In this document: piece by piece, positions 15,716-31,563 of the stretch
How the letters are laid out: every line of letters starts with the position of its first letter
Position numbering within the stretch: position 1 is the stretch's first letter
Assembly: GCF_002006795.1 (NCBI RefSeq)
Contig: NZ_MVDN01000001.1
Span: 385,149-445,071, forward strand
Direction of reading: 5' to 3'
Length of the DNA stretch: 59,923 nt
Origin: Wohlfahrtiimonas populi
GTDB lineage: Bacteria > Pseudomonadota > Gammaproteobacteria > Cardiobacteriales > Wohlfahrtiimonadaceae
Notes under the pieces: generated by a model
Told to the model about the DNA's origin: nothing
The model's database searches: none
What the model saw: the letters and a program-made list of their open reading frames with translations, nothing else
Program-made: the position numbers and the translations under genes

Positions 15716-15804
15716 GTGTTATTCTTTTGGCGAACAAATACATGTCACACGAGTATCACTATGATTTACGCACACAAGCACGCACACACAGTGATATCTA
15801 CTTC

Positions 15805-15973
15805 CCTCAAATCGTTGAGTTTTAGCACTGTACGGCATAAGACGTGAATAAATATTCACTGCTAGCTACGTTATAAACCACCTTAATTCGATAGTTTCTG
15901 TTCAAACCCGTTGGCGTCTTTGGACGTTTCTGGGCAGTAGCATGTCTCCGTACAGGAGCCTCACCTAACGAGG
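15805..15973 (-). promoter_or_regulatory. M-box (ykoK) magnesium riboswitch
   Basis: Read on the minus strand, the segment matches the M-box consensus in order: CGTTAGGTGAGGCTCCT at the 5' end, GAGACATGCTACTGCCCA, AAACGTCCAAAGACGCCAA, a variable arm, TTAAGGTGG, then TATGCCGTACAGTGCTAAA near the 3' end. Closing stem CCTC/GAGG is at 15970-15973 and 15805-15808. M-boxes bind Mg2+ and turn off Mg2+ transporter genes. Here it precedes three corA genes and an intrinsic terminator. The class is best known from Firmicutes. Confidence 0.93.
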
Positions 15974-15994
15974 TTAGATTTGCAATCAGGGCGC

Positions 15995-19954: not shown

Positions 19955-20473
19955 CTAAAAAGTATAAATTCGTTGCGTGATTGTGTTGTCAATGAGGTTA
20001 GATTCAACTTTCTGCGCTTTAATTGGCGCATAACTTTGTTGTGTGAATAATGGAATGCCTGTGCCCAATAATACAGGTGTAATGTAAACTTCTAGTTGAT
20101 CCATATAACCGAGTGCAATAGTAGAAGAAATCAATTCCCCACCACCTAAAATCCAACAATTTTTATCTTCTTCGCTTCGTATCATTTGCATCAATGTAGA
20201 TAAATCACCTTGCCAAATTTCTACATTAGTATCGGTAGTTTTCAAATCAGTTTGTGAGGTCACTATCCAAGTTTTCTGATGTGGGTATGGCCAATCAATG
20301 CCAAAACCCATAATGGATTCATATGTTTTTCTGCCCATTACAATAATGTCAATTTTCTGAATGAACTGATCATAACCACAATCAATATTTTGAAAATCAT
20401 TCAAAAAATCAATATTACCTTGTTCATCTGCAATATAGCCATCAATCGTTGTCGCAATGTATCCATAAATCAT
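19955..20473 (-). CDS. Dihydrofolate-reductase-like protein (RibD C-terminal domain family)
   Basis: 172 residues. Text IATTIDGYIADEQGNIDFL, IVMGRKTYESIMGFG, CWILGGGELISSTIALGYMDQLEVYITPVLLGTGIPLF is that of stand-alone RibD_C/DHFR-fold proteins such as Bacillus YyaP and YwjB. These bind NADPH; substrates are mostly unknown. It is not the housekeeping folA type, and a role in trimethoprim tolerance is not implied by sequence. The start lies 17 bp from a seven-copy AAATAT repeat, suggesting variable expression. It is the last of tetR, cat and this gene on the same strand. Confidence 0.82.
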   Translation of the reverse strand: MIYGYIATTIDGYIADEQGNIDFLNDFQNIDCGYDQFIQKIDIIVMGRKTYESIMGFGIDWPYPHQKTWIVTSQTDLKTTDTNVEIWQGDLSTLMQMIRSEEDKNCWILGGGELISSTIALGYMDQLEVYITPVLLGTGIPLFTQQSYAPIKAQKVESNLIDNTITQRIYTF

Positions 20474-20490: not shown

Positions 20491-20532
20491 AAATATAAAT
20501 ATAAATATAAATATAAATATAAATATAAATAT
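20491..20532. repeat. Tandem hexanucleotide repeat (AAATAT)x7
   Basis: Seven exact copies of AAATAT, ending 18 bp before the start codon of the dihydrofolate-reductase-like gene (minus strand: ATATTT). The position overlaps where a -10/spacer or 5' leader would be. Simple repeats there are classic slip-strand sites that change promoter spacing or leader length. Confidence 0.95.
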
Positions 20533-20584
20533 ATTAAATTTATCCTGAAAATCACAAATAATAAACTTACTAAAAGGATTTCCC

Positions 20585-21223
20585 CTAATATATTAATTCG
20601 TCAATACATTCGTGTAAAAGATCAATAAACCTCCCAATATGAAAGCCATCACAAACAGCATGATGAACTTGTATTGCTAAAGGCAATAAAAGCTTTCCAT
20701 CCTTTTCACTAAATTTTTCCATCGTAAAAATTGGTGCAAAATGATCATTCACTTCAGAAAAGCCTAAATTGAATCCACTAAAGCTCATCCAAGGCAAGCT
20801 TGAAATATTGAAGTGATTTTCTGGCAAATTGGGCTTGGGTGATAATGCTAAATTATACTGATATTCTGCAAAATCTTCTTCATAAGCGCGCATAAATTCT
20901 GTGAGATCTGAATGATATTCAGTCCACAATGATGAAAATGTTTCTGATTCAGGATGAAAAATTGTGTAACTGGGTAATACAGTTTCCCATTCAATCAACT
21001 GTTCATTTTTCAATGCCATCTTTAGTGCAGGCACCTGATTCACAGCTTGTGTGATCAAGTAAATCATCACAGGGTAAAATTTGTAATGATAATGCTTATA
21101 GAAAGCAACAACATTAGTAACATCAATTTCTGTAGTTAAACTGAAATTACATTGTATTTGACGATAAAAATTATAATGCTCTTGGCGGTTCCAAGATGCT
21201 AAATCAATGATTTGGTATTGCAT
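20585..21223 (-). CDS. cat: Chloramphenicol O-acetyltransferase, type A
   Basis: 212 residues, typical for type A CAT (about 210-220). It acetylates chloramphenicol at the 3-hydroxyl with acetyl-CoA as a cytoplasmic trimer. It starts with the family pattern DLASWNRQEHYNFYRQ, contains FHPESETFSSLWTEYH, and the catalytic block QVHHAVCDGFH with catalytic His188 and structural Asp192. All key residues are intact. The cat Shine-Dalgarno (AAGGG, 7 nt before ATG) lies in the 3' arm of a hairpin preceded by a short leader ORF, so expression is probably drug-inducible. Base composition is like its neighbours and no mobile element is seen, suggesting a chromosomal cat. Confidence 0.93.
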   Translation of the reverse strand: MQYQIIDLASWNRQEHYNFYRQIQCNFSLTTEIDVTNVVAFYKHYHYKFYPVMIYLITQAVNQVPALKMALKNEQLIEWETVLPSYTIFHPESETFSSLWTEYHSDLTEFMRAYEEDFAEYQYNLALSPKPNLPENHFNISSLPWMSFSGFNLGFSEVNDHFAPIFTMEKFSEKDGKLLLPLAIQVHHAVCDGFHIGRFIDLLHECIDELIY

Positions 21224-21229
21224 ATGCCT

Positions 21230-21269
21230 GCCCTTTTAAAAAATTAAAAAACTATTTTGTTAAAAGGGC
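21230..21269 (-). promoter_or_regulatory. Translational attenuator hairpin of cat
   Basis: GCCCTTTTAA (21260-21269) pairs perfectly with TTAAAAGGGC (21230-21239). An AAAA/TTTT pair set extends the stem past a single bulged C. The 3' arm holds the cat ribosome-binding site; the 5' arm covers codons 10-13 of the leader ORF. A ribosome held in the leader would open the stem. Confidence 0.85.
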
Positions 21270-21296
21270 TAAATCCACTGCTCTCTTTTCTTTCAT
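21252..21296 (-). CDS. catL: cat leader peptide, 14 residues
   Basis: ATG at 21294-21296, stop TAG at 21252-21254; the product reads MKEKRAVDLALLTK. A strong Shine-Dalgarno GGAG stands 5 nt upstream, starting right behind the TetR stop codon (15 bp). Known cat leaders in Gram-positive plasmids are of 9 codons, and chloramphenicol stalls ribosomes in them. Chloramphenicol stalling favours Ala, Ser or Thr as the penultimate residue; Ala6 here would place the stalled ribosome over the hairpin's 5' arm. The sequence differs from the leader peptides I know, and the role is inferred from position. Confidence 0.8.
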   Translation of the reverse strand: MKEKRAVDLALLTK

Positions 21297-21311
21297 CAAA
21301 GCTCCAATAAT

Positions 21312-21917
21312 TTATGGTGATAATGTTTTACGAATGATCTTCTCTAAAAAATCCGTATGAACTTCCCAATCAAAACTTTGATCAGTCACGCTATAGCATA
21401 AAATGCCATTAGTTAAAATGAATAGCCAATCAGTAATAATGCCTGGCTGTAAATCTTGTGCGACTTCACCATTTTGAATACCAATGGTAATTAAATCTGT
21501 TAGGGCTTTTTTATTCCACTTTTCATTTTCTAAAAAAATCTTCATAATTTCTGGGTTGCGAGTAGCTTCAGCATTGATTTCAATACATAATCGCGCTGAA
21601 ATATGATAAACCGTGATGTATTTCACCACTGCACGAATGATAGCAACAATAGAATCAACAACCTTTGATTCATTCACATTTTCAGCAAAAATATCCGCAA
21701 AAATAACGCGATCATTTTCAGCAATTGCTTCAATGATCTCTTGCTTACTTGAAAAATAGTGAAAAACATGACCAGGGCTCATTCCTGCCTCACGACAAAT
21801 TTCTGCTGTCGTTGTTGAGTGGAATCCTTTTTTCGCAAAACAGACAACTGCAGCATCCAAAATATGCTGTATTTTCTCTTTCTGTTTTGCTGTTTTTTCT
21901 TTTGTCATGTTACTCAT
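21312..21917 (-). CDS. TetR-family transcriptional regulator
   Basis: 201 residues. The N-terminal helix-turn-helix reads QHILDAAVVCFAKKGFHS, then TAEICREAGMSPGHVFHYFSSKQEIIEAIAE near residues 40-70. The C-terminal ligand domain is variable, as usual, and resembles BetI/AcrR-like sensors. The gene is divergent from the GNAT pair with a perfect palindrome between them, and its stop is 15 bp before the cat leader with no terminator in between, so tetR and cat may share a transcript. It could control cat, the acetyltransferases, or both. Starts at residues 1 and 4 are both possible. Confidence 0.87.
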   Translation of the reverse strand: MSNMTKEKTAKQKEKIQHILDAAVVCFAKKGFHSTTTAEICREAGMSPGHVFHYFSSKQEIIEAIAENDRVIFADIFAENVNESKVVDSIVAIIRAVVKYITVYHISARLCIEINAEATRNPEIMKIFLENEKWNKKALTDLITIGIQNGEVAQDLQPGIITDWLFILTNGILCYSVTDQSFDWEVHTDFLEKIIRKTLSP

Positions 21918-31261: not shown

Positions 31262-31351
31262 ATACCCTCTATCATTAGATTTATTTTGGGGCACAAAAAA
31301 ACACAGCATAGACAGCATGCCAAATAATAGGCACGTGAATAGAGTTGTGAT

Positions 31352-31471
31352 TTATCTTTTACCATCCAGACTATACTGTCGGTTTTGGAATTTCACCAAG
31401 ATCAGCTTTCGCTCGCGGACTATCACCGCCGGTCGGGAATTGAATTGCTTCGCACCCTGCCCCAAAGATAA
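31352..31471 (-). promoter_or_regulatory. FMN riboswitch (RFN element)
   Basis: On the minus strand the conserved blocks appear in order: GGGGCAGGGTG, AATTCCCGACCGGCGGTGATAG, AGTCCGCGAGC, GGTGAAATTCC, AAACCGACAGT, AGTCTGGATGG. Closing stem TTATCTTT / AAAGATAA at 31464-31471 and 31352-31359. It lies 90 bp before ribD. Downstream, CTCTAT (31339-31344) can pair with ATAGAG of the ribD ribosome-binding site (31267-31272), and a short stem with a 7-T run follows too, so either translational or transcriptional control is possible. Confidence 0.96.
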
Positions 31472-31563
31472 ATTTTTCAATTGGCAAAACTCTATCACAT
31501 ATAATTTTCGATATCAAATCACATGCTACAAGTTGTCCGAAATGAGGTTTTTCAAAAATAGAA

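Follow-up and report, generated by a model that had tools for sequence, protein, structure and literature searches.

The cat gene of the window, by which we mean the whole stretch of 59,923 nucleotides of Wohlfahrtiimonas populi DNA that was analysed, is very probably controlled by a chloramphenicol-inducible translational attenuator. This reading, put forward in a preliminary description of the DNA, is supported comparatively by homologous loci, by covariation in the stem and by a motif, spacing and hairpin common to the attenuators of pC221 and catA9. In the proposed mechanism, a stem in the transcript would hide the AAGGG Shine-Dalgarno sequence of cat, so that little CAT would be made. At a low dose of chloramphenicol, a ribosome translating the leader would stall with Val7 in the P site and Asp8 in the A site, Ala6 being one residue before the P-site residue. 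The footprint of the stalled ribosome would reach the G-C half of the 5' arm, opening the stem and freeing the Shine-Dalgarno sequence, and cat would then be translated until the drug had been acetylated. We infer the stall, the role of the drug as signal and the induction from sequence comparison.

Leader, stem and cat in the window

The features of the region all lie on the minus strand (Table 1). The cat product matches NCBIfam model NF000491.1 over model positions 1–207 of 208 with 270.7 bits, barely over the cut-off of 270, and its nearest relatives are 50–57% identical. Upstream of this phenicol resistance gene, a short ORF, the leader, is preceded by a Shine-Dalgarno sequence of its own. 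The 5' arm of the stem overlaps the leader and the 3' arm masks the Shine-Dalgarno sequence of cat, and the leader has an Ala/Ser/Thr-penultimate codon context positioned for a stalled ribosome to reach the 5' arm. The arms GCCCTTTTAA and TTAAAAGGGC are perfect complements over 10 bp, and the predicted MFE structure is exactly this stem. The coordinates first given for the 14-codon ORF with its GGAG all check, the perfect 10-bp stem is correct to the base, and AAGGG does lie within the 3' arm as the Shine-Dalgarno sequence of cat. No Rfam family reached its gathering score over the leader-hairpin region of the window or of the pC221, catA9, catA3, Ignatzschineria and Providencia loci. Elsewhere in the window, an M-box (magnesium) riboswitch (15799–15979) and an FMN riboswitch (31350–31473), both on the minus strand, scored well over the Rfam gathering score.

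Table 1. Features of the tetR-leader-cat region, in window positions
Feature	Position	Strand	Basis
cat, type A chloramphenicol O-acetyltransferase, 212 aa, HHAVCDG motif	20585..21223	-	NF000491.1
Masking stem, 3' arm TTAAAAGGGC, carries cat Shine-Dalgarno	21230..21239	-	sequence, predicted fold, covariation
cat Shine-Dalgarno AAGGG, 7 nt from ATG (21223)	21231..21235	-	sequence
Leader ORF MKEKRAVDLALLTK plus stop, 14 codons	21252..21296	-	ATG 21296-21294, TAG ends 21252
Masking stem, 5' arm GCCCTTTTAA, within leader ORF	21260..21269	-	sequence, predicted fold, covariation
Presumed arrest site: Ala6 (21281-21279, E site), Val7 (P site), Asp8 (A site)	21273..21281	-	aligned core of leaders, PMC8987054 context rule
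Leader Shine-Dalgarno GGAG, 5 nt before ORF	21302..21305	-	sequence
TetR-family regulator gene directly upstream; stop codon 21314-21312	21312..21917	-	sequence

The genome comprises 2.78 Mb in 74 contigs, and the window together with 400 kb of the same genome provided a control sample of 341 gene starts. These were scanned for a Shine-Dalgarno sequence and short ORF overlapping a 5' arm, with the 3' arm at most 22 nt from the gene start. A stem of at least 10 bp in such an arrangement was found at one of the 341, namely cat. Dinucleotide shuffles of the cat upstream region gave a stem of at least 10 bp with at least four G-C pairs once in 3000. The rarity is one of arrangement and not of energy, because the folding energy of the region is unexceptional for AU-rich DNA (z about −1.3). 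Such a plain z value is compatible with AU-rich DNA holding an inverted repeat and a short ORF by chance, but this explanation is made exceedingly improbable by the two counts above, by the conserved leaders, by the covariation and by the matches of a covariance model to classical attenuators described below. The inverted repeat sits between leader and cat, where a transcription terminator, i.e. transcriptional attenuation, might also be sought. That reading was rejected, and its probability is negligible: CAGGCATATG follows the 3' arm without a U-run, no terminator-like site was found there, and the 3' arm lies at a fixed distance from the start codon, as for Shine-Dalgarno masking.

Because the tetR stop is 15 nt from the leader start and no promoter-like or terminator-like site was found on the minus strand between tetR and cat, the regulator gene, leader and cat probably share one transcript. 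The same closeness would suit a regulator that mainly controls cat, with the leader and stem an inherited remnant now without a role. We consider this very improbable, as the leader and stem are intact in the window and the unit accompanies cat in places that lack an adjacent upstream tetR stop (L003, L005, Providencia, plasmids). Moreover, neither cat nor tetR was found in five congeners, which points to gain in this lineage, and the pair is probably recent. Alongside attenuation by the leader, the TetR protein might, speculatively, add a transcriptional layer. Leader translation might also be coupled to tetR termination. The genome holds a second type A cat, 45% identical (G000 C18:197-829, L002), on a 5.9-kb contig, which has no leader or stem and whose nearest relative is in a family mate (G016). 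Seven perfect copies of AAATAT (20491–20533) form a candidate slippage tract between cat and a dihydrofolate-reductase/RibD-C-like gene (19955–20473).

Leaders before related cat genes and covariation of the stem

Leaders with a hairpin were found before type A cat genes in 16 distinct versions, which comprise four groups. (i) The window's family has MKEKRAVDLALLTK (window), MSMKKAVDLALLR (an Ignatzschineria MAG) and MFVQKAVDSSLLK (family mate G013). (ii) Providencia has MLFSTAEKLPF, MLLSKAERVALLR, MSPIKAERVALLH, MVFSKAERAPF, MVLSKAERKPF, MLPKAEKLPF, MLFSKAERSPF, MLFSKAEKYPF, MSQSKAEKPPF, MNQLKTEKFPF and MNQSKTEKFPF. (iii) MLSIQTERMPF stands before the catA3-type gene in a genome of the genus Providencia (L138), the Providencia-type source of catA3, and is also present on the Edwardsiella plasmid pEIB202 (L147). 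(iv) MLPIETTRLPSDY precedes catA2 (CatII); it was rejected as a catA3 leader, the loci concerned being catA2. At L138, where the leader is intact, the match to the query is limited to residues 46–207 and the cat frame may be interrupted near the N terminus.

The leader ATG is 69–77 nt from the cat start across all leaders. Each distinct leader encodes Ala or Thr immediately ahead of the presumed P-site codon; Glu, Val or Thr comes next and then Lys, Arg or Asp, giving the core [A/T][E/V/T][K/R/D]. The P-site codon starts 9–11 nt ahead of the conserved CCTT core in the arm. In MLPKAEKLPF, which is one codon shorter, a value of 7 nt arises because codon 7 is counted; from its own P-site codon, codon 6, the distance is 10 nt. 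The presence of leader and stem in homologues, a check proposed in the preliminary description, was thus confirmed, but its statement that the leader is unlike known ones did not hold, since its relatives have the cores KAVD, KAER, KTEK and TTR, with which its own RAVD core aligns. Sampling of the class yielded no further relatives. Weak scan matches in Clostridia and Sphingobacterium (L036, L039, L040, L046), with mutually different stems of 7–8 bp, were not counted. A count of synonymous and non-synonymous changes used only four core codons and gave no informative signal.

For the stem, the arms were anchored on their common CCTTYT/ARAAGG cores, with padding in the loops (alignments A3 and A4), which assumes that the cores correspond. 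RNAalifold found no pairs in the first MAFFT alignment (A2) because MAFFT had shifted the arms by a few columns. Of the cells for the 13 possible pairs, 89% are paired, as compared with 42–58% when one side is slid by 1–3 columns; anchoring biases the alignment towards structure, and the slid columns are the fairer control. Changes on both sides occur in six of the 13 pairs, and none of 500 shuffles reached the covariation score, with which the shorter alignment agrees, so that the compensatory changes that had been proposed as a check are present. Foreign combinations of arms between groups mostly pair more poorly than cognate arms. One Providencia locus (L136) conserves the leader MNQSKTEKFPF with a weakened stem, AGAAGTAA, which is possibly decaying or leaky.

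A covariance model (R1) was built from 17 gammaproteobacterial sequences. It matches the pC221 attenuator (leader MKKSEDYSS), which is absent from the model, with 38.8 bits and an E-value of 1.7e-4, E-values of this model being rough. The attenuators of catA9 (leader MKKADKSAS) and catA8, neither of which is in the model, are matched as well. Among 793 genomes (395 of the Providencia order and 398 of the window's phylum), R1 found two cat leaders, both in the model, and one other match (G906, E 6e-4), which is apparently antisense to xseB/ispA and was taken as chance.

Predicted stalling site and opening of the stem

Stalling by chloramphenicol is best with Ala penultimate in the nascent chain and less with Ser or Thr (PMC8987054). 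On the KNAD sequence of the cmlA leader, the P site of the stalled ribosome holds Asp8 and its A site Lys9 (PMC11190716). The Ala6-Val7-Asp8 sequence of the window and the Ala/Thr-Glu-Lys/Arg sequences of its relatives would fit this context, although the window has Val after Ala and Asp in the A site, where cmlA and catA9 have an acidic and then a basic residue. Ala10 may provide a second stall site, with Leu11 occupying the P site, both in the window and in its closest kin.

Opening was modelled by refolding with 16 nt masked, counted from the first nucleotide of the P-site codon. With the stall at Val7, the predicted probability of an open AAGGG is 0.018 (0.085 for GGG alone), up from 3e-8, and with Leu11 or Leu12 in the P site it is 0.06–0.85. 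At the stall codon of the relatives, the Shine-Dalgarno sequence has a predicted open probability of 0.003–0.59, with most values at 0.13–0.59 and a small opening in L003, L022, L140 and L135. The Val7 stall leaves a weak alternative A-U hairpin (−1.9 kcal/mol) over part of the Shine-Dalgarno sequence, and for this reason a fuller opening is predicted with Leu12 or a later codon in the P site.

Any ribosome that finishes the leader opens the stem in these refoldings, and some basal coupling of cat to the leader is therefore expected. The stem might then serve merely to keep cat translation low, to couple cat to the leader or to affect mRNA stability, with a leader that does not respond to the drug. 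This is very improbable, given that the Ala or Thr before the presumed P-site codon recurs in every distinct leader, that the spacing equals that of pC221 and catA9, and that the element is restricted to chloramphenicol acetyltransferase genes among the genomes sampled.

Relation to known attenuators, spread and loss on plasmids

Translational attenuation is textbook knowledge for Gram-positive cat genes and is known for cmlA; Gram-negative type A cat genes, to our knowledge, are treated as constitutive. The latter view, which the preliminary description had repeated, is at odds with the sequences before catA2 and the catA3 source. The Gram-positive type A cat attenuators (cat-86, pC221, pUB112, catA8 and catA9) are like the unit described here in having a short leader with a Shine-Dalgarno sequence, Ala, Ser or Thr before an acidic or small P-site residue, a stem that overlaps the end of the leader and masks the cat Shine-Dalgarno sequence, and about 9 nt from the P-site codon to the arm. 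They differ in leader length (9 codons, as compared with 10–14 here) and in the arms (CCTCC/GGAGG in place of CCCTTYT/AGAAGGG); the window also has another host, another CAT clade and a tetR gene upstream. The cmlA leader of Tn1696, likened here by its description, shares the penultimate Ala, the acidic P-site residue and a Gram-negative host, but the gene under its control lies in an integron cassette and encodes an exporter instead of an acetyltransferase. The catB gene of Agrobacterium tumefaciens, again compared by its description, is likewise a proteobacterial chloramphenicol-inducible acetyltransferase gene under translation attenuation, but its product is a type B enzyme unrelated to type A.

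Attenuation of Gram-positive cat genes is classical (Lovett 1990, as cited in PMC11489765), and translation attenuation of the Agrobacterium catB has been reported (Rogers et al. 2002, as cited in PMC5331189). In a 2024 study on resistance of Enterobacterales to chloramphenicol, the passages found speak of attenuation for cat_pC221 only and not for catA2. The openly accessible literature searched gave no account of attenuation for catA2, catA3 or Providencia cat. The mechanism itself is known; what appears to be new is how widely it extends among the type A cat genes of Gammaproteobacteria, catA2 and catA3 among them.

Of 637 plasmid records with similarity, about 592 retain the catA2 leader region, a record being counted if a single place in it covered 80% of a query beginning 48 nt ahead of the leader; the region also occurs in 46 of 5426 E. 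coli genomes. It carries no feature annotation in the records examined, for which the plasmid gene table is incomplete. On the CAT tree, leaders occur in the clade of the window, in two clades of Providencia, in the catA2/catA3 clade and in the Gram-positive catA7-9 clade, and none occurs in the catA1/Enterobacterales/Pseudomonas clade or in Bacteroidota. The distribution of the leader requires 6 changes on this quick tree, as compared with a shuffled mean of 16, and gain and loss are indistinguishable because the root is unknown.

In several mobile copies the leader and the 5' arm are gone and the arm with the Shine-Dalgarno sequence is left. For catA3, such copies lie behind an IS5-type transposase in Vibrio (L122) and behind sul2 in Pasteurellaceae (L015, L146); for catA2, one lies behind IS26 on an IncC plasmid of Salmonella (L125). 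An Actinobacillus locus (L007) has a window-like cat in the same state behind an apparent sul2 end. Such copies are predicted to be constitutive. A broader proposal, offered tentatively and with a likelihood that we put clearly below even, is that the Gram-negative and Gram-positive type A cat attenuators are one homologous mobile cassette that travels with its gene, that the drug induces catA2 and the catA3 source, and that mobilisation onto plasmids (IS5, sul2 junction, IS26) has repeatedly cut away the leader and 5' arm, turning inducible genes into constitutive ones.

catA2 is common on Klebsiella and Enterobacter plasmids and on hospital plasmids. If the switch works, catA2 and the Providencia cat genes would be inducible, and this would bear on the reading of susceptibility tests and on the genotype-phenotype mismatches studied for the re-use of chloramphenicol. 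The leaders would provide a natural set of about 16 putative arrest peptides, with varied P-site and A-site residues, on which context rules could be tested, and the leader-truncated plasmid copies, if the prediction for them is true, would be their ready-made constitutive counterparts.
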